A DNA stretch of 64,000 nt, taken from positions 1 to 64,000 of the forward strand of contig NZ_KB898040.1 of the NCBI RefSeq assembly GCF_000377345.1, read 5' to 3'. The translations under genes were made by a program, and so were the position numbers. Every line of letters begins with the position of its first letter. Position 1 is the first letter of the stretch. Positions 1-10,233 of the stretch are shown piece by piece. The DNA comes from Thioalkalivibrio sp. ALJ16 (GTDB lineage Bacteria > Pseudomonadota > Gammaproteobacteria > Ectothiorhodospirales > Ectothiorhodospiraceae). The notes under the pieces were generated by a model. It worked only from the letters and a program-made list of their open reading frames with translations. It did no database searches and was not told the DNA's origin.

Positions 1-2087
1 AACGGCGACGGCTTCATCAATGCCGACGAGGTGGATGAAGACGGCAACGTGGCGGTGACCATCGACCTGACTGACACCAACGCCGAGGCCGATGACATCC
101 TGACGGTCAACGGTAACGAGATCACGCTGACCGAGGACCACATTAACGCCGGCCAAGTCGTGACTGCGGTGGCCGCCCCGGACGAGGGCGAGACCCTCGA
201 GGTTGTGGCCACGATCACCGATGCTGCGGGCAACACCTCTGACGAGGGCACGGCGAGCGCCGAGGTCGACACCACCGCGCCGGATATCACCAACCTTAAT
301 GAGACGGGTGACGTCACGGTCGATGAATCCTTCCTTGAGGGAGGGACGCAGGCGGGTGAAGGTTCAATCGTGGATCAGAATTGGTTCGGGGTGAGTTCGG
401 CGTCTGGAATCGCGTCGGTGGCGTTTGCTGGCACTTTGCATTCCGGCACCGCTACCGAGGATGGAGATTTCGTTACTGTTAGCTGGGCGGATCTGCAAAA
501 TATCGATTCCGAGTCGCCGGTGGAGATCGACACAGCAGAAGGCAACGTGCTCCGGCTGACCGACTTCGACGCCGACACCGGGCGTGTCGATTACGAGTTT
601 GAATTGCGGACTACGTTCGCACATCCGGAAGATGAAGATGTCGCGCGCAATCTGTTGGACAAGGCGGGAATCGAGATAATCGTGACCGACAACGCCGGCA
701 ACAGTTCGAACAGCGCGATCAATGTGGTCGTGATCGACGATGCGCCTACCCTCGAAGACGCATGGAATGGTGTCTTAAACCTTTCCGCAGGCGCCACGTT
801 GACGGCCGATTCCGGATTGCGCATCGGGGCAGATGCCGATGGCGCGAAGGTGACGTCGCTCCACATTAACGAGGCTTCCGTTGATACGGTCGATGGCAAG
901 AATTACGTACTCGTCGAGTCCAGCGTTACCGGAGAGATGACTAACTTGACGTCTGGCGGCGAACATGTCTGGTACGAATCTAACGGGGGTACGCTGACGG
1001 CTTATGCCGGGGATCAAACGGTCTTTACGGTTTCTCTGGATGTGGCAACCGGGGCCTACAGCGTTTCTCTCGAGCAATCCCTGGATCCTATAAATGAAAG
1101 CTTGGGATTTTTTCAGCCTGTAAGGGGGGGGAATACAGGCTCTGTAATTGAAAATGATAATGCGAATCTGGCGATTCGATTTACTGCAGAAGATGAAGAT
1201 GGTGAGAGGTCCGTTAACTTCTCGGCGAACTCTTTTGGCGTCGGGTCCGGCCCGCGGATCGGTCAAGGTCAAACGTTGAAGGCCGAGTTTTTCGAAAGTG
1301 GCAGCACAACTGATCGGAAGGTATTGAACTCCCTTGAGATTGAGCCTTGGGGGCGTCGGAAGGCGGTGCAAAGGTCGAGTGGTCCGCTTTCCTCGATGGG
1401 GAGCTGGTTGGGTCTGGCTCTGGAACCTTTGTTGGTGGGGTCGGTTCGTTTGACGAGGTGCATGTTTCGCCCGCTTCGGATTCGGATGATTTTGGCGTCG
1501 GGCGATTCAGTGATCTTACGGGTGAGGCGTACGGTTTTAGTATCCCGTTTGAGTTTGATGCTGTCGATGGTGATGGTGATCCTCTGGGGAGCGATGGTGG
1601 CGCGACTACCGGGGCGTTCGAGCTGAGTTTCAGTGCTGATAATGTGTTCGAGGGTTCGGCGGGTAACGACGTGATCATCGGTACGGATGAGGATGACATT
1701 CTGGTCGGTGGGGCAGGAGACGACATTCTGACCGGGGGTGAGGGAGACGATATCTTCCGGTGGAATGATGGGGACCAGGGTGAAGCGGGGTCGCCGGCCA
1801 GGGATGTGGTGACCGACTTTGGTAATGGTCAGAACGTGCTGGATGTCTCCGACCTTCTGGATGACGCGACCGAGACCAGCTTGTCTGGCTTTATCATTGC
1901 GAAAGAAGATGGTGACGATACGGTCCTTTACATCAGTTCGGCTGGTGAGTTGGGTGGTGATGAGGCCAAGGCTGATCAGACGATTCGTCTGGAAGGGAAG
2001 TCGTTCAGTGATTTCGGGGGCGCGTCGGCGTCTCAGGACGTCATCAATTACTTGTTGAATAACGATCAGTTGAAGATCGATCAGTAA
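1..2087 (+). pseudogene. 3' end of giant Ig-like/RTX type I-secreted adhesin, frameshifted near 1350
   Basis: The 5' end lies outside the window; the frame is open from base 1. Residues encoded by about 1-300 form a bacterial Ig-like repeat ending in the usual DTTAPD signature. Bases 300-1340 continue as T1SS-adhesin domain sequence. At 1344-1380 the reading moves from frame 1 to frame 3: frame 1 then turns to nonsense and stops at 1624-1626, while frame 3 is closed by TGA at 1335 and 1341 and becomes the good frame afterwards. Frame 3 encodes glycine/aspartate RTX nonapeptides (about 1660-1760) and a type I secretion tail ending LKIDQ at TAA 2085-2087. One extra G in the G5 run at 1349-1353 would join the frames. 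Either this copy is broken or phase-variable, or the base is a sequence error. The tail closely matches that of the adhesin at 3884-5746. Confidence 0.8.
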
Positions 2088-2176
2088 GGGAAACACTGAT
2101 CAATGGCCCTGCGTCCGGCTTCATGTCCCGCCGCCGCGTTTTTGGAAGGACATTGGGCCACGGCGGCCTGTTTTAC

Positions 2177-2210
2177 CCCCTGTAACCGCCGTTTTTGGCG
2201 GTTACAGGGG
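2177..2210. repeat. Perfect 14-bp inverted repeat (hairpin) inside the IS, downstream of transposase
   Basis: CCCCTGTAACCGCC (2177-2190) and its exact reverse complement (2197-2210) flank a 6-base loop. It lies 24 bp beyond the transposase stop and about 90 bp inside the left end of the element. Neither strand has a convincing T-run after it, so it is not a classical intrinsic terminator. Such hairpins near IS ends can block read-through transcription; that role is an inference. Confidence 0.75.
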
Positions 2211-2233
2211 TGATTCCCAGTCCTGCGAACACA

Positions 2234-3220
2234 CTACCCCTGCGGCAGGAGCCCCCATCGTCGCGCACGGTAGAGGTTCGCCAGGGCGAACAGGCTGTGC
2301 AGCTGCGCGGTGTTCTTCTTGAGGCCCGCGGTGTTCTTCTTGAGGCCCCGGTAACGCACCTTGCGATACCCGAAGAGGTTCTTCACCACATGGAACGGAT
2401 GCTCCACGATCGAACGCAGCTGGGCCTTGTGCCGTTCATTGGCGCGGACCTGGTCGCGCGCTGGACCTTCCAGCATCGCGCGCACCTTCGCGCGCTTGCG
2501 CGCGATGTGCAGATCCGGGCGATGCCCTTCCAGCCGCTTCTCCGCGCCGATGTAGCCGGCATCACCATGCAGGCTCTGTTCCTCACCGTGGAGCAGTTCC
2601 GTCACCTGCGACACGTCCGAGACGTTCGCGGCCGTCCCCTTCACGGTATGAACCAGGCCGGTGACAACATCGGCCCCGATATGCGCCTTCATCCCGAAGT
2701 ACCACTGGTTGCCCTTCTTGGCCTGGTGCATCTCTGGATCGCGGGCCTTCTCCCGGTTCTTCGTGGAAGGCGGGGCCGCGATCAGGGTGGCATCCACCAC
2801 CGTGCCCTCACGCAGCAGCAGGCCCCGCTGCTGCAGATGGGCGTTGATCCGGTCGAAGATCACCTGGGTGAGGTTGTGCTGCTCCAGCAGCCGGCGGAAC
2901 TGCAGCAGGGTCGTGGCATCCGGCGCCTCTTCCCGGCTCAGGTCGATCCCGACAAAGCGACGAATCGCCTGGCTGTCGTACACCGCGTCCTCGATCCCTT
3001 CATCCGACAGGTTGAAGCACTGCTGCGCCACGTACATCCGAAGCATCCGCTCCAGTCCGATCGGCGGACGGCCACGCTTCCCCTTCGGGTAGTGCGGCTC
3101 GATCGCCTCCACCAGCGCCGCCCAGGGCGTGATCGCGTCGATCTCCCCCAGAAACCGGTCGCGCCGCGTCTGCTTGCGCTTGGCGGAGTACTCGAGATCG
3201 GAAAAACTGCGCTGAGACAT
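2234..3220 (-). CDS. IS5-family DDE transposase
   Basis: The product has 328 aa. It catalyses cut-and-paste movement of the surrounding element. The N-terminal segment (about residues 45-120: KGKRGRPPIGLERMLRMYV ... LSDEGIEDAVYDS) is the typical IS5 DUF772-type DNA-binding region. The catalytic triad can be placed at D143 (VVDATLI), D220 (HGDAGYIGAEK) and E273 (VEHPFHVVK), followed by the FGYRKVRYRGL motif. A 21-bp in-tandem duplication at about 2308-2350 repeats GLKKNTA (residues 292-298 and 299-305) inside the normally ungapped C-terminal helix region; the frame is kept but activity may be affected. The gene is transcribed toward the upstream adhesin. Confidence 0.95.
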   Translation of the reverse strand: MSQRSFSDLEYSAKRKQTRRDRFLGEIDAITPWAALVEAIEPHYPKGKRGRPPIGLERMLRMYVAQQCFNLSDEGIEDAVYDSQAIRRFVGIDLSREEAPDATTLLQFRRLLEQHNLTQVIFDRINAHLQQRGLLLREGTVVDATLIAAPPSTKNREKARDPEMHQAKKGNQWYFGMKAHIGADVVTGLVHTVKGTAANVSDVSQVTELLHGEEQSLHGDAGYIGAEKRLEGHRPDLHIARKRAKVRAMLEGPARDQVRANERHKAQLRSIVEHPFHVVKNLFGYRKVRYRGLKKNTAGLKKNTAQLHSLFALANLYRARRWGLLPQG

Positions 3221-3323
3221 CGGCCATCACCTCGGGCGGAACACTTGGCGTCATTATCCCAAACCCGCTCACCGGGCGGGAACGGCGGCGGATTAAATCA
3301 GTGTTTCCTAAGAGGGCGTGTGG

Positions 3324-3412: not shown

Positions 3413-3742
3413 ATGTATGTGAGAAGGGACGCAGACGGCAGGATCGATCTGGTGAGTCGGGAGGCGACTGGTGCTTGCACGGAATTCGTGGCAGCCCATG
3501 CCCCTGACCTGCAGGAGTTTCTGTCTGGGAAGGAGCCTGAACCGGCGCCCGCGGCATTGCAGGCGTCGGATCTCGAACTGATCCGGGTGCTGGAGGACCT
3601 GGTGGAGGTGCTGACCGACAAGGGTGTGATTCGGTTTACGGACCTCCCGGATGCGGCGCAGCGGAAGCTGCTGGGGCGAAAGGATCTCCGGGCGTCTGCG
3701 CAGCGTCTGAATCTGGTGGAAGATGATGACGGGCTTCTGTAG
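3413..3742 (+). CDS. Small conserved hypothetical protein of the adhesin locus
   Basis: The product has 109 aa, with no signal peptide or membrane segment. It is acidic at its C-terminus (EDDDGLL). A distinct core, DLELIRVLEDLVEVLTDKGVIRFTDLPDAAQRKLL (residues about 53-87), looks like a helix pair. I recall similar small proteins next to LapA-type adhesin genes that carry the misleading label 'tryptophan synthase subunit beta-like'; nothing here resembles TrpB. The start is ATG 3413. The gene sits in the same direction as the two adhesins and 141 bp before the second, so a role in adhesin production or secretion is plausible but unproven. Confidence 0.7.
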   Translation: MYVRRDADGRIDLVSREATGACTEFVAAHAPDLQEFLSGKEPEPAPAALQASDLELIRVLEDLVEVLTDKGVIRFTDLPDAAQRKLLGRKDLRASAQRLNLVEDDDGLL

Positions 3743-3883: not shown

Positions 3884-5746
3884 ATGGCAGTGAATACGGT
3901 AGTGGCCACCGTCCAGGCATTGACCGGGACGGTGATTGCGAGGGATGCAGACGGCAGTTCCAGGGTGCTCGCGGTCGGCGATCCGGTGTATGCGGGAGAT
4001 GAGCTGATTCCTCTGCAGGGGGCTTCGGTCGATCTGCAGGCTATGGATGGGGGTGCCTTGTCGCTCGGGGAGGGCCAGCAGGCCCTGGTGGGTGAAGTTC
4101 TCGCGGATAGCGGCCGCGCGGACAACCCTGAGATTCCAACGGCGGAAGAGGTGATTGCGGCCCTGGAGCGCGGCGAATCACTGGATGCGTTGATTGCGCC
4201 ACCCGCGGCCGGTCTCGAGGGTGGTGATAGCGAAGGCGGCGGGTTTGTGCGTGTCGCGCGAATTAGCGAGCCGGTGGAGCCGATTAATTACACCTTCCCG
4301 GAGAATGTGTTTGGTCGCCCCGATGCGCTGGGCGAGACCGTGGCGGTGCCCGGAGGGGAAACCCCGGGCACGGTTATGCCTCCCGGCCAGCCGCCTGCAG
4401 AGCCACCGGTTGAGCCGCCACCCCCGGTGACGGCCAACCCGACGCTTGTGGTGTCCGTATCCGTGGCAGCCGGATATGGGTATGCAGACGCGAACGATGC
4501 GGCTGCGGGTGATGTGGTCTTCGAGGTCTCCGATACCCTGAATCTGGATGGGCTGGACCCTGCCCTGGCCAGCGCAATCGTCTACAGCATTGTCGGCGGG
4601 GATACGGCCTATCTGGAGTTCGCTCAGGATGGGGCGGGCAACTGGGTGGTGGTGCTGACAGAGGCGGGAGCGGCCGCAATCCGCGCGGGTCTGGTGGACG
4701 ATAACCAGTTGAACGTGACCGTGGAGGGCACGATTGAACTGGTGGAGCTTCCCGATCTTGTGGATACCGGCAGCGCTTTTGCGCCGGTGCCCGAGCCGGG
4801 TGGCGAAGAACCGCCCGAGCCCATGCCGGATCTGTTTGCCTCGGCTCATGTGGTCGGCGGCAGTGATGTGCAGGGGACGATGGCGAATGCGGACAGCCTG
4901 AAGTCGACGGGTGCGCAGAGTGCTGCGGTATCACATCAGGACGGGTTCTTTGCGATCGACCATCAGTCGGCATCGGATGATCCGAACGCGATCGAGTTTG
5001 GCGAGGCCCTGCTGTTTACGCTGGTCAGCCCCATCGATACCGCGGTGTTCCAGATTGAAGGTGCCATCAATGGCGGCTCGTATCACCTGTACGATGCCGA
5101 TGGGGTGCGCATCGGCGGGGCTCGTGAGCTTGCCGCGGATGTGAACGAAGACGGTTTCCTGGAGTTGAGCGGTGAGACGTTTTCCTACATCGCGTTCCAG
5201 GGCGGGACCACGGGGCCCGGAGGGAGTGGCGATCGAAGCGAATTCTCCGTGCGACCGGTGGATCTGTCGGTCCAGGTGGGCGAGGGCGATGGTGCCGAGT
5301 TTTATCCTGCCGACGGCGTGGAAGCCCTTGCCGCCGAGTCGGTAGAGACGCTCGACGAGGCCGATGACTTCGGCGCGAACTTCCTGACCGTGGATACGGA
5401 TCAGGACATCTTCGTGGTCGCCGAAGGCGGGCAGGGCACGACGGACGACCCCGCTCGCTTCGTGATCCAGGGCTTCAGCCTGGAAAGCGAGAGCAGTGCG
5501 GCCCAGATTACGCTCGGCGAGCTGCTGTCGAGTGCGAGCCAGGAGACGATCGACCAGTACCTGTTGGCCGAGCCGCAGGGCGAGGATACCGTGCTGCACA
5601 TCAGTTCCGGGGGCATGCTCGGAACGGACACGGGCGGCGTCGATTACGCGATTACGCTGGAAGGAGTCAGCATGGACGGTTTTGACTCGTCCTATGACTT
5701 CATCCAGACGCTGATCGAGAATGGTCATCTGACCATCGATCAGTAA
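3884..5746 (+). CDS. Miniature LapA-type adhesin (retention module plus type I secretion signal)
   Basis: The product has 620 aa. ATG 3884 is chosen over an upstream GTG at 3851 because the retention-module N-terminus begins MAVNTVVATVQALTGTV. Residues 1-105 resemble the LapA retention module that holds the protein in the outer-membrane channel. PAAG at 107-110 fits the LapG cleavage motif. A proline-rich linker (about 169-183), one cadherin-like stretch (about 185-290) and a second domain (about 315-465) follow. The C-terminal 100 residues form a type I secretion signal ending LTIDQ, paralogous to the tail of the adhesin at 1-2087. There are no extended Ig repeats, so it is far shorter than typical LapA (thousands of residues). 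Its release is expected to be controlled by LapD/LapG encoded next door. Confidence 0.85.
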   Translation: MAVNTVVATVQALTGTVIARDADGSSRVLAVGDPVYAGDELIPLQGASVDLQAMDGGALSLGEGQQALVGEVLADSGRADNPEIPTAEEVIAALERGESLDALIAPPAAGLEGGDSEGGGFVRVARISEPVEPINYTFPENVFGRPDALGETVAVPGGETPGTVMPPGQPPAEPPVEPPPPVTANPTLVVSVSVAAGYGYADANDAAAGDVVFEVSDTLNLDGLDPALASAIVYSIVGGDTAYLEFAQDGAGNWVVVLTEAGAAAIRAGLVDDNQLNVTVEGTIELVELPDLVDTGSAFAPVPEPGGEEPPEPMPDLFASAHVVGGSDVQGTMANADSLKSTGAQSAAVSHQDGFFAIDHQSASDDPNAIEFGEALLFTLVSPIDTAVFQIEGAINGGSYHLYDADGVRIGGARELAADVNEDGFLELSGETFSYIAFQGGTTGPGGSGDRSEFSVRPVDLSVQVGEGDGAEFYPADGVEALAAESVETLDEADDFGANFLTVDTDQDIFVVAEGGQGTTDDPARFVIQGFSLESESSAAQITLGELLSSASQETIDQYLLAEPQGEDTVLHISSGGMLGTDTGGVDYAITLEGVSMDGFDSSYDFIQTLIENGHLTIDQ

Positions 5747-5770
5747 GCGCCGTTCTCCCCCCGATGGAAC

Positions 5771-5804
5771 AGGCCCGGGCCGCGTGGTGGTCCCGGGCCT
5801 TTTA
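5771..5804 (+). terminator. Intrinsic terminator after the LapA-type gene
   Basis: AGGCCCGGG (5771-5779) pairs with CCCGGGCCT (5792-5800), followed by TTT. It lies 24 bp after the adhesin stop and between convergent genes. Confidence 0.8.
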
Positions 5805-5832
5805 GTGTCGGGCAGCCCGAGGTCTGTCCCGG

Positions 5833-7743
5833 TCAGGCCTCGGGTGCCTGCACCGCACGGCCCGTTACCCCGTCGATTCCGAGATCCAGCAGGGCCTCCA
5901 CGTCGTCCGCATGGTCGCAGCCTTCGGCGATGACCAGGATGCCGATAGAATGGGCCAGGGTGCAGAGTCCGCGGATCAGGGCCTGTGTTTCGGTGGAGCG
6001 CTGGACACCCTGGACCAGGGACGCCTGCAGCTTGACGAAGTGCAGTCCGAAGGCGGTGAGGTCGTGCGAGCGGAAGGCCTCGGGTCCGGCGTGTTCCAGG
6101 CCGACAACAAAGCCTGCCACACGGGCAATACGGCACAGGTCGCGCAGTTCGGCAGGGTGGGCCAGTGCGCCTCGTGCCGGGAATTCGAGCCACAGGCGGC
6201 CGGCGATCTCCGGTTCGGTTGTCAGGCGAGCTTCCAGCCGCTGCCGGAAACCGGTATCCCGCAGGCTGTCCACCGATAGGTTGATCGCAAGGCGATCACC
6301 GGTGCGGCCGAGTTGTTCGAGTGCGACATCGAGCACGGCATCGTCGAGCTTCCGGATGAGATCCAGGCGCACGGCCCAGGGCATGAAGTAGCCGGCAGGG
6401 CGTGACTCGCCGTCCAGCACCAGGCGCATCGGCGCCTCGTGGTGCATCAGTTCGTGGTCCGCATCGATCACCGGGAAACGCGCCAGCTGAACACCAAGGC
6501 TGCCCAGGGCCTGGGTGATGGCGCTACGCCATTCGTTCTGACTGGCGTGGGGCAGAACGGCGTGCGGCTCTTCGGCGACGGAGTCGCCGGGCTCCAGTTC
6601 GGCGCGGGCCAGCGCCTGATCCACTCGGCTAAGAACCTCGCCCGTGGTGTCATCGGGGTGGAAGGGGGTTCCGGCCAGGTGCAGGGTCAGGGCCTGCGGG
6701 GTTTCCGGGGCAGCGAGGTCGGCGCGAATCGCGGTCAGCAGGGATTCGGCGAAGCGCTCGCTGTCATCAATGCCGTCACCAAAAATTGCGATGTCGGAGC
6801 CCTTCAGACGTCCGGCAGCACCATGGTTGGTCACGCTCGCCTGCTGCTCGGCAACGCCTGCGATGCGGGTCAGAAGCTGGTCGAGCGCAGCGTGCCCGAT
6901 CGTCTGGTTGAGTTCGGGAAGGTCGGAGATGCGCAGCACCACAAAGCTGCCGCCGGAGCCGCCGTGGCGGTTGTCGAGTGTGGCCTGAAAGCGAGCCAGA
7001 AAGGCATCGCGGTTCAGGAGTCCGGTGACATCATCGTGCTGCAGGCGGTTCTTGAGCCGCTCCAGGCGGGTGGACTCTTCCTGGAGCATCATGCGTACGT
7101 GATCGGTCAGCTGGTTCATGGCGCGCACCAGGGCGCGGAATTCCCAGGTGCGCGGTTCGGGGGTCGTGATGAAACGCCTTTTACCGACCGCTTCCGCCTG
7201 TTCCACAACCTGGTTCAGCGGCCGGATCAGCCGCCCCAGCAGGTAGGAACCCAGAAGCCCGACGATCAGCAAGCCGCCGGCAAAGATCGCGGTGAGACGG
7301 AGCGTGCCCTCCCACAGGGCCTCGTAGGCGTAGTTGGTCTGGCTTTCGATGATCAGGGTACCGAAGGAGCTCCAGCCATCGGACACATGGGCGACCCCGG
7401 GGCGCACGTTGAAGGCCAGGCGCTCCACGAACCAGGCGGGTACGCCCTGGGGCGGATCCGGGTTGCGCCGTTCAATCATCAGTTCGCCGGTCGGGTCCAC
7501 CAGCCGGATGTGCTGATAGTGGCCGGTGTCGAACTGCGAGGCGATCTGCAGCTCCACGGTGGTCTCGTCCTTGGGCAGCTGAGAGAGCGACAGGGCCAGG
7601 GAAGCGGCGTTGTCGATGTTCTTGGTCAGCAGTTGCTGTGCCAGATAGTTGCGGGCCGACAAGGTGCTCACCACGATACTGACCACGAGCGCCAGCAGCA
7701 TGATGATGGCGATGGCGATCCAGAGTTGTTTTCTCAGCGTCAT
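5833..7743 (-). CDS. lapD: LapD-type c-di-GMP receptor controlling LapG
   Basis: The product has 636 aa. Start ATG 7743 has GAGG about 9 nt upstream; an ATG at 7797 would overlap lapG. The order is: transmembrane helix (about 6-28), periplasmic LapD/MoxY-type output domain (about 30-150, with GWSSFG), second helix (about 152-172), HAMP, degenerate GGDEF and degenerate EAL. The GGDEF signature is replaced by KGSDIA and the EAL motif by EAPMRL, so it should bind c-di-GMP without making or degrading it. Known family role: with c-di-GMP bound, the periplasmic domain sequesters the protease LapG; without it LapG cleaves LapA-type adhesins. It is co-transcribed with lapG, 10 bp downstream of it. 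Confidence 0.92.
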   Translation of the reverse strand: MTLRKQLWIAIAIIMLLALVVSIVVSTLSARNYLAQQLLTKNIDNAASLALSLSQLPKDETTVELQIASQFDTGHYQHIRLVDPTGELMIERRNPDPPQGVPAWFVERLAFNVRPGVAHVSDGWSSFGTLIIESQTNYAYEALWEGTLRLTAIFAGGLLIVGLLGSYLLGRLIRPLNQVVEQAEAVGKRRFITTPEPRTWEFRALVRAMNQLTDHVRMMLQEESTRLERLKNRLQHDDVTGLLNRDAFLARFQATLDNRHGGSGGSFVVLRISDLPELNQTIGHAALDQLLTRIAGVAEQQASVTNHGAAGRLKGSDIAIFGDGIDDSERFAESLLTAIRADLAAPETPQALTLHLAGTPFHPDDTTGEVLSRVDQALARAELEPGDSVAEEPHAVLPHASQNEWRSAITQALGSLGVQLARFPVIDADHELMHHEAPMRLVLDGESRPAGYFMPWAVRLDLIRKLDDAVLDVALEQLGRTGDRLAINLSVDSLRDTGFRQRLEARLTTEPEIAGRLWLEFPARGALAHPAELRDLCRIARVAGFVVGLEHAGPEAFRSHDLTAFGLHFVKLQASLVQGVQRSTETQALIRGLCTLAHSIGILVIAEGCDHADDVEALLDLGIDGVTGRAVQAPEA

Positions 7744-7753
7744 GGCGGCGCCC

Positions 7754-8491
7754 TCATTCCGGGGTCGAGTGAATGGGTTGGTCGAGATCAAGGCCATATT
7801 CGTCCAGCTGCTCCAGGATGCGGCGCCAGCGTGACAGCCGCGCCGTGGGGTCGGCAGCGGACTGTGCCTGCCCGTCCGGCCAGAGCCCCTCGCTGTTGAA
7901 CGAGAAGATCGGGGTCAGGTCGTCTCGCTGGGACGCGCGTTCGATGCGGGTGACGAGGTTGTCCAGCACCATGGGCTCCTCGCGCGGATCGGTGAAATAC
8001 CCCAGAACCATGTGCGCCTGGCTGAGATTGCTTCCGGGGCCGCCCAGCCGCGCTCGTACGTAGAAGAGCCGCAGGCGTTCATCGGGGATGCCCAGTTTGC
8101 GCAGGCTGACGTATTTGGCGATGGAGAAGTCCTCGCAGTCCCCCGCGCCCTTGTCCAGGGCCTCCAGCGGTGTCGCCCAGAAATCCTCCTGTCCCCAGGT
8201 GATCTCATCGTCCTGATAGCGCAGCTGGCGATTGAAGAACTCGTTGACCCGGGCGATCTGGGTCTGTTCGTCTTCGCCGGCGAGATCTTCCAGCAGTTCC
8301 CGCCAGCGCCGAACACGCTCTGCGGTTTCGGGCCCGTAGCGTTCGGCCGCAACCTGCTCCAGCTGTACCAGGCTGTCGAGCCCCGCATGGCTGGAGCCCA
8401 GTAGCCACACCCCGGTCACGAGCACGAGCACGAGCACCAGGCTCGCGCGCCGTATCAAGCGGGACGGATTGCTGGGCCAGATTGCAGGCAC
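7754..8491 (-). CDS. lapG: LapG-type periplasmic transglutaminase-like cysteine protease
   Basis: The product has 245 aa from GTG 8491, chosen because GGAGGG lies about 10 nt upstream and an N-terminal signal/anchor (RLIRRASLVLVLVLVTGVWLL) follows directly; an ATG at 8596 would add 35 residues of poor sequence. The BTLCP domain shows the catalytic triad C119 (GAGDCEDF), H160 (AHMVLGY) and D177 (VLDNL). The calcium-binding acidic stretch typical of LapG is compatible with DDE at 94-96. It cleaves after the di-alanine in the retention module of LapA-type proteins; the neighbour at 3884-5746 carries a matching PAAG. Confidence 0.92.
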   Translation of the reverse strand: MPAIWPSNPSRLIRRASLVLVLVLVTGVWLLGSSHAGLDSLVQLEQVAAERYGPETAERVRRWRELLEDLAGEDEQTQIARVNEFFNRQLRYQDDEITWGQEDFWATPLEALDKGAGDCEDFSIAKYVSLRKLGIPDERLRLFYVRARLGGPGSNLSQAHMVLGYFTDPREEPMVLDNLVTRIERASQRDDLTPIFSFNSEGLWPDGQAQSAADPTARLSRWRRILEQLDEYGLDLDQPIHSTPE

Positions 8492-8778
8492 GCAGGCGGC
8501 CCTCCGGTGGCGGTGAAGAATTCCTACACCCTGAATGATGGGCCACGCCTGTATGGAAAGCCAGAAACGAAAACATGAAGTGATGCCCCGTGCCAAGGTG
8601 TTCAGCGCTTCTTGCGTTTGCTCCTTGTTATGTGATTTCCATCAAAAAATCATTGCTCGCGTGTAGGCACGGGTCTATCGTTCTTGGGTTTGAGTCACAA
8701 ATCCGCGTTTTCTCAGGCCCGGCGCTGCCAGGGCCGGGTGACAAAGCGAATATTCGAGCAAGATTGATGGGGGTAGGC

Positions 8779-10233
8779 ATGACGGACGTAACAAGGTCGA
8801 TCACTGCAAAAAGTGGGTGGCTGGCCCTGGCGGCGGCTGTCGCGATGGTCGCGGGGGGAACGGCTCAGGCCGAGGCCCCGGAACCGCTGCGCGACGCCGC
8901 GCTGGAAGCGGTGCTCTCAAACCCCGATGTGCAGTCGCGTTGGCATGCCTTTCGTGCCTCCGGTGAGGAGCAGACCGGCGCCCGCGGGCGCTTCATGCCC
9001 GAGATCGATCTGAACGCCCGTACTGGTTATCAGCGTCAGCGCTCCAGCGACGACGCCTTCGATTCATTTTCACGAAATCCGCGCGGCGTCGACATTACGC
9101 TGACGCAGATGCTGTACGACGGATTCGAGACCGCGAGCGAAGTCAGCCGCTTGGGCGAGATTCAGCGGGTTCGGTACTTCGAACTGCGCGAGACCACCGA
9201 GGAGATCGCGCTGGAGGCCGTACGGGCCTTCGCCGATGTTCAGCGCCAGCGCGCCCTGGTGGACCTGGCGCAGGAAAACTACGACGCGCACAAGGAGGTG
9301 TACGACCAGATCGTGGACCAGACCGAGCGTGGTGTGGGCCGAGGCGTTGATCTCGAGCAGGCCTCGGGTCGCCTGGCCCTGGCCGAGTCCAACCTGCTGA
9401 CCGAGCGTCAGAACCTGCATGACGTGAATGCGCGCTACTACCGGATCGTGGGGCAGATGCCCGCGGGCGACCGCGTCGATCTGGTCGGAAGCTTCTCCGA
9501 GGAGCCGATTCCCGGCACCGTCCAGGAGGCGCTGACCACGGCGATCACCACCAACCCGGCCATGTTTGCCTCACTGCGCAACATGGAGGCGGCACAGGAA
9601 CAGCGCAACGTCGCGCGCTCGGCTTTCCACCCGCGTCTGGACCTGCGCCTGCGGCACGCCTACGAAAATGACGTGTTCGAACGCGAGGACACCCGGATCC
9701 ACGACACCTCGGCGCTGGTGGTGATGACCTGGAACCTGTTCCGTGGTGGTACCGATCAGGCGCGGGTGCGCCAGTTCACCGAGGAGTTCAATCAGGCGCG
9801 CGACCAGCAGGAGTCGGTATGCCGCAACGTGCGTCAGACCGTATCGGTTGCGTACAACGATATGCGTTCTCTGGATAGCCAGCTGCGCTTCCTGCGCCAG
9901 CATCGCGACTCATCTGACCGCGTGCGTACGGCGTATCGCCAGCAGTTCGGCATTGGCCAGCGCAGCCTGCTGGACCTGCTGGACACGGAGAACGAGTACT
10001 TCGAGGCGAGCCGGGCCTTCATCAATGCCCAGCACGATATGGAGATCGCCAAGGCACGGGCACTGAACGGCATGGGCCGACTGCTGGAGTACCTGGATAT
10101 CTCGCGTGGCGACATGCCGAGCATGGCGGAGCTCGGCCTGGTGGACGACGCGGCCCGGATCGATCCGGAGTCGGTGTGCCCGGCAGACGCCCCCGAGATG
10201 AGCGAAGTGCGGCACGAGAGCATCTTCCGCTAA
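8779..10233 (+). CDS. TolC-family outer-membrane channel of a type I secretion system (LapE-like)
   Basis: The product has 484 aa. ATG 8779 has GGGGGTAGG just upstream; an in-frame ATG at 8767 is the alternative. A signal peptide is clear (LALAAAVAMVAGGTAQA). The body is an outer-membrane efflux protein with two repeats of long helices (for example EEIALEAVRAFADVQRQRALVDLA, split around 230, and RQTVSVAYNDMRSLDSQLRFLRQH). Such channels form the exit duct for type I secretion and, in Lap systems, hold the retention module. It is divergent from lapGD. No ABC transporter or membrane-fusion gene is adjacent, so the rest of the machine must be encoded elsewhere. Confidence 0.88.
   Translation: MTDVTRSITAKSGWLALAAAVAMVAGGTAQAEAPEPLRDAALEAVLSNPDVQSRWHAFRASGEEQTGARGRFMPEIDLNARTGYQRQRSSDDAFDSFSRNPRGVDITLTQMLYDGFETASEVSRLGEIQRVRYFELRETTEEIALEAVRAFADVQRQRALVDLAQENYDAHKEVYDQIVDQTERGVGRGVDLEQASGRLALAESNLLTERQNLHDVNARYYRIVGQMPAGDRVDLVGSFSEEPIPGTVQEALTTAITTNPAMFASLRNMEAAQEQRNVARSAFHPRLDLRLRHAYENDVFEREDTRIHDTSALVVMTWNLFRGGTDQARVRQFTEEFNQARDQQESVCRNVRQTVSVAYNDMRSLDSQLRFLRQHRDSSDRVRTAYRQQFGIGQRSLLDLLDTENEYFEASRAFINAQHDMEIAKARALNGMGRLLEYLDISRGDMPSMAELGLVDDAARIDPESVCPADAPEMSEVRHESIFR

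Follow-up and report, generated by a model that had tools for sequence, protein, structure and literature searches.

LapA-type adhesins are known for their size and reach, and the Lap locus of Thioalkalivibrio sp. ALJ16 raises the question of what a protein of this type does with only 620 residues. The window analysed here is the whole stretch of 64,000 nucleotides at the left end of contig C4, which belongs to an assembly of 2.75 Mb in 32 contigs. An earlier note on this DNA had described a compact LapA/LapD/LapG/TolC locus with a repeat-free LapA that might act as a plug, a sensor or a competitor of the large adhesin for the same channel. The reading preferred here, with a probability of about 0.6, is that of a surface-retained, short-reach adhesin with a swappable head, which would be extra to the large adhesin in this haloalkaliphilic Thioalkalivibrio relative.

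The gene calls and coordinates behind the compact locus were right. The gene of the short LapA-type adhesin (3884–5746, plus strand; NF033682, 112 bits; orthologues 88–92% identical) was followed on the minus strand by the genes for LapD, the c-di-GMP receptor with a degenerate EAL domain (5833–7797), and for the periplasmic cysteine protease LapG (7754–8596), and on the plus strand by the gene for a LapE-like outer-membrane channel of the TolC family (8590–10233; TIGR01844, 282 bits, above the cut-off). LapD matched PF16448 with 135.7 bits and NF045673 with 408 bits (below the cut-off of 1020 of the latter profile), and its periplasmic and degenerate EAL domains aligned with the LapD structures 3pjw and 4u64. 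LapG scored above the cut-off of PF06035 and reached 226 bits with NF045674 (cut-off 320), while the Cys, His and Asp of its triad aligned with those of the solved LapG (4u65). The TolC start is probably located at about 8779, because several orthologues matched only from residue 64 on. The scan for promoters and terminators returned none. To the left of the short LapA gene were placed a gene for a 109-aa protein (3413–3742, plus strand; BLASTP identities of 49–84% in the relatives), an IS5-family insertion sequence (2089–3308, minus strand; NF033581, 310 bits; transposase at 2234–3220) and the C-terminal part of a large LapA-type adhesin with RTX repeats and the type I secretion domain (31–2087, plus strand; TIGR03661, 49 bits), which continues from contig C14. 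The 109-aa protein had no Pfam or NCBIfam match; where that part had been assembled, none of the Lap loci examined in the relatives lacked it, and it was kept even where the window-type short LapA was absent (G025) or distant (G015 and G045).

What did not stand was the extent of the locus, which continues to the left onto C14. The right end of this contig encoded LapB (943 bits), LapC (377 bits) and the N-terminal end of the large adhesin, which is the second protein with a retention module, and the final 254 bases of C14 were exactly the first 254 bases of the window. This overlap makes it probable that the Lap locus is one unit with two substrates, in which LapB, LapC, TolC, LapD and LapG are all encoded alongside, albeit the overlap may be merely a repeat shared by the two contigs. 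The simplest reading of the sequences would be a single locus in the order lapB, lapC, large adhesin, IS element, 109-aa gene and short LapA, followed by lapD and lapG on the opposite strand and by tolC. The gene order in the relatives G016, G019, G023 and G024 matched that of the window, minus the IS element; the named relatives are the Thioalkalivibrio strains ALJ21, AKL19, ALJ3 and ALJT.

By sequence and domains, the short protein belongs to the LapA-type retained adhesins, in agreement with the earlier note. Its N-terminal part (residues 1–110; 3884–4213, plus strand, as for all of the following domains) included the retention module, a predicted helix and the PAAG site. The retention module reached 112 bits with NF033682, for which the cut-off is 50 (E 2.4e-32, far beyond chance); the E value of 2e-8 for the family profile agreed with the fold match of the modelled module to the anchoring domain 5ix9 (Z 13.3, rmsd 3.0, 75 aligned residues). 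The PAAG motif was present at residues 107–110 (codons at 4202–4213), exactly where the earlier note had put it, with P107 and G110 invariant in an alignment of nine sequences. It conformed to the LapG site [T/A/P]AAG and was preceded in the model by a predicted helix at residues 87–95, as in known LapG substrates, while the short LapA (ESLDALIAPPAAG) had no 'DP' turn as in the P. fluorescens site, and neither had the local large adhesins. The site was followed by a Pro-rich linker (residues 111–183; 4214–4432), recognized by its sequence and modelled as a low-confidence coil, whose approximately 73 residues would, by our own estimate, be long enough to thread TolC when extended, so that a TolC-spanning role may be assumed.

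Beyond the linker the protein consisted of one spacer domain, one head and an export region. A single extender domain was recognized at residues ~184–290 (4433–4753) by a profile built from the protein's own domain of about 103 aa (one copy, 149 bits). The claim that repeats are almost missing was thus correct insofar as 620 aa with one extender are far from a giant adhesin of thousands of residues and many extenders, but the term 'repeat-free' was not, since residues 185–288 form one such unit. The head domain (residues ~313–466; 4820–5281) was delimited by alignment and was jelly-roll-like in the model, with structure matches of Z 5–8. The C-terminal type I secretion region (residues ~497–620; 5372–5743), which ends in LTIDQ, was recognized by homology to the C-termini of large adhesins: residues 495–620 were 38% identical to the window's own large adhesin, and the orthologues gave 37–39%. 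The secretion signal suggested previously was supported by this homology, but TIGR03661, which matches the large adhesin, missed the C-terminus of the short LapA, and no RTX nonapeptides were detected in the short protein (no PF00353 match), which places it outside the RTX adhesins. RTX repeats were present in the large adhesin and in a second short paralogue found in relatives.

The profile of the extender domain showed a variable number of copies across the family. The large adhesins contained seven copies in G016, four in G019 and two to three in G023, and no copies were found with this profile in the fragments of the window's own large adhesin. The short orthologues had one copy each in G000, G016, G023 and G024 and two copies in G039. 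At least two copies were present in G026, where the contigs are broken inside the repeat. At the sequence level, the short LapA is a one-repeat allele of a family with varying repeat number.

The short proteins differed in their distribution and spacers among the relatives. G024, G016 and G023 possessed the window-type short LapA (88–92% identity) plus the second short paralogue in tandem, the latter with about 520–580 aa and a spacer of varying length built from DPGDE-type repeats; G019 had only this second paralogue, and G025 had neither of the two, though lapD, lapG and tolC were present. Two LapAs of about 600 aa with long Pro-Glu spacers were encoded in G045, a member of a neighbouring genus, between lapC and the lapD side, and the retention-module search found no further match above the cut-off in this genome. 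Judged from its sequence, the short LapAs are the only LapAs in G045; they carry PGVG/PGAG instead of PAAG, and so release or regulation may differ there. A protein in which a prolyl-hydroxylase-like 2OG-Fe(II) oxygenase domain (60.8 bits) is fused to one resembling tubulin-tyrosine ligases (41.9 bits) was encoded between the Pro-Glu short LapAs and lapD in G045 (L053:5596-7386, minus strand) and G042 (L098:1354-3135, plus strand). Its only other homologue in the family was located on a second contig of G016, with no Pro-Glu LapA beside it. The fused protein might modify the Pro-Glu spacers; a literature search on the pairing of such a hydroxylase and ligase found nothing, and the search on Lap adhesins in Thioalkalivibrio gave nothing relevant. 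Another low-complexity solution for a spacer, a very long Asp-Thr dipeptide stretch, was observed in the retention-module proteins of G013 (L022) and G014 (L023).

The short LapA shares its head with the second short paralogue and with one of the two proteins of G045 (49–95% identity). No convincing homologues outside the bacterial family were found in 369 genomes of the class (one marginal hit with E 8e-4), and none in viral contigs. In the full-length model the best match of the head was a module of an Aeromonas adhesin, 9q5u (Z 8.0, rmsd 4.1, 133 aligned residues, 14% identity), and the head folded alone gave a best structure match with Z 5.9. The AlphaFold confidence was poor for the full-length protein (pLDDT 53) and reached 68 for the head alone, which was weak in its N-terminal half. 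With such a low-confidence model, the matches to jelly-roll folds and carbohydrate-binding modules (Z 5–8) are middling, and a ligand-binding function of the head is taken as a lead only. The identity between the coding sequences from G024 and G016 was 96–100% up to residue ~300, dropped to 60–80% over residues ~306–395 and returned to 99% thereafter. The divergent segment had a length of about 300 bases, and dS increased from 0–0.08 before the segment to 0.69 over the head. Such a pattern in the alignment is that of an N-terminal half of the head swapped by recombination between otherwise near-identical alleles. An exchange confined to one exposed domain would be expected of a binding or antigenic surface and not of a plug.

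There is good support for the inference that the short LapA is a LapG-cleavable, type I secreted protein which uses the channel of the large adhesin, because the genome-wide profile search gave two matches above the cut-off for the retention module and one for LapB. The domains, the synteny, the conservation among orthologues, the variation in copy number and the head swap were observed directly. By analogy with the established Lap pathway, in which export by LapBC-TolC is followed by periplasmic retention and by LapG release at low c-di-GMP (PMC13090378, PMC6890996), export, retention, cleavage and adhesion of the short LapA would proceed as follows. The protein would be exported by the type I system of the large adhesin (LapB, LapC and TolC), its N-terminal module would stay folded in the periplasm with the Pro-rich linker threaded through TolC, and the single extender would present the head of about 150 aa just outside the outer membrane. 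A drop in c-di-GMP would let LapD set LapG free, and LapG would then cut at PAAG and release the short LapA. The spacer, made of one or two extenders in this case and of acidic or Pro-Glu repeats in the paralogues, would determine the reach, and the head exchanged through recombination the specificity.

Both proteins have the same kind of anchor and probably use the same single exporter and channel, and some competition between them is likely, indeed unavoidable, if both are made. The possibility that this is the purpose of the short LapA, occupying TolC as a plug, decoy or competitor and thereby limiting the display of the large adhesin or blocking the channel, is improbable, and nothing suggests it. 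A plug needs neither a conserved, recombining head of its own nor an extender, the copy number of the latter varies as in adhesins, and the short LapAs of G045 have no large one to compete with. A further argument comes from the window's own large adhesin, whose homologues match in one frame up to position 1290 and in another from 1371. With this shift the reading frame stops before the secretion region, and the large adhesin of this genome may be non-working, either through a sequencing error near the contig end or through a true mutation; as assembled, the genome may be without a functional competitor. The frame break is single and located near a GGGGG run. The whole-genome search with TIGR03661 missed this adhesin, which is found with hmmscan, and its negative result was disregarded. 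Of the ideas in the earlier note, the shared channel is likely, while a dedicated function as plug, sensor or competitor lacked positive support.

Two other explanations were weighed against the short-reach adhesin. The protein might do its main work only once LapG has cut it, then serving the matrix as a small lectin-like molecule in soluble form; its small size, single head, LapG site and the resemblance of the head fold to carbohydrate-binding modules are consistent with this. We consider this unlikely, since strong conservation of the retention module (dN/dS of 0.08–0.11 against the window's copy) indicates that retention matters. Very little probability is given to the views that the gene derives from a large adhesin by decay or truncation, or that a repeat array collapsed during assembly: an IS element is located nearby, the large adhesin is frame-broken and the assembly is fragmented with contigs ending in repeats, but the short LapA is under strong purifying selection (dN/dS of 0.10–0.13 against three orthologues). 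Collapse or truncation in the assembly was rejected, as the one-extender form was found in three relatives, including the two-contig assembly of G016. The IS5-family element has 12-bp terminal inverted repeats (2089–2100 and 3297–3308) and is situated directly behind the stop codon of the large adhesin, with TAAG flanking it on both sides (window positions 2085–3312), which may be a target duplication.

The reading as a short-reach adhesin can be compared with several known systems, and the presence of more than one adhesin under a single LapD/LapG is already known. In P. fluorescens, two retained adhesins, LapA and MapA, are governed by one LapD/LapG (PMC13090378), and the locus analysed here resembles this pair in the retention module, the [T/A/P]AAG site (consensus from PMC13090378), the T1SS, LapD and LapG; in contrast to that pair, a single locus here encodes both the large adhesin and a short second one, for which there is no separate T1SS, and a further short paralogue stands alongside in some Thioalkalivibrio relatives. 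The FrhA and CraA proteins of V. cholerae are likewise cleaved by LapG and have distinct roles under one LapD/LapG (PMC6890996), but both are large and encoded apart, unlike the short LapA and the large adhesin here. The ice-binding adhesin of M. primoryensis shares the N-terminal anchoring fold (5ix9), but beyond this domain it is a giant protein in which many extenders are combined with several domains for ligand binding (PMC12077191). With the ligand-binding module 9q5u of the Aeromonas RTX adhesin (PMC12077191) the head model aligns in a weak, low-confidence match, and the RTX repeats are missing from the short LapA. A short and complete protein of 670 aa from another gammaproteobacterial family (G235) likewise combines a retention module with one extender-like unit, but differs by a long RTX block and by the absence of such a head.

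Of 13 ORFs from other parts of the class that had a retention module and looked short, most ran off the available sequence, mostly at a contig end, the one in G182 contained an assembly gap and that in G260 was closed but short, with 165 aa; only those of G235 (670 aa) and G118 (983 aa) were complete. With most of them incomplete, raw frame lengths cannot serve to argue for short LapAs. G235, the only complete protein below 700 aa outside the family among those examined, shows that the short type also arises elsewhere, though rarely. The literature search returned no short, single-extender substrate that shares the locus of a large adhesin, has a swappable head and stands alone in one genus.

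In a wider and doubtful extension of these results, the Lap loci of this family would encode a graded set of adhesins with a common type of anchor, exporter and protease, whose reach would be set by interchangeable spacers (Ig-like extenders, DPGDE or Pro-Glu repeats) and whose target by a recombining head, the Pro-Glu spacers of the neighbouring genus being modified by the adjacent fused prolyl-hydroxylase-like/tubulin-ligase-like enzyme. A family that retains the anchor, the protease site and the export region, with the spacer cut to one domain and in some cases no other LapA present, lets the role of length be asked directly, and the short LapA, with 620 aa versus thousands, is a small and tractable natural substrate for the retention in TolC and the release by LapG.
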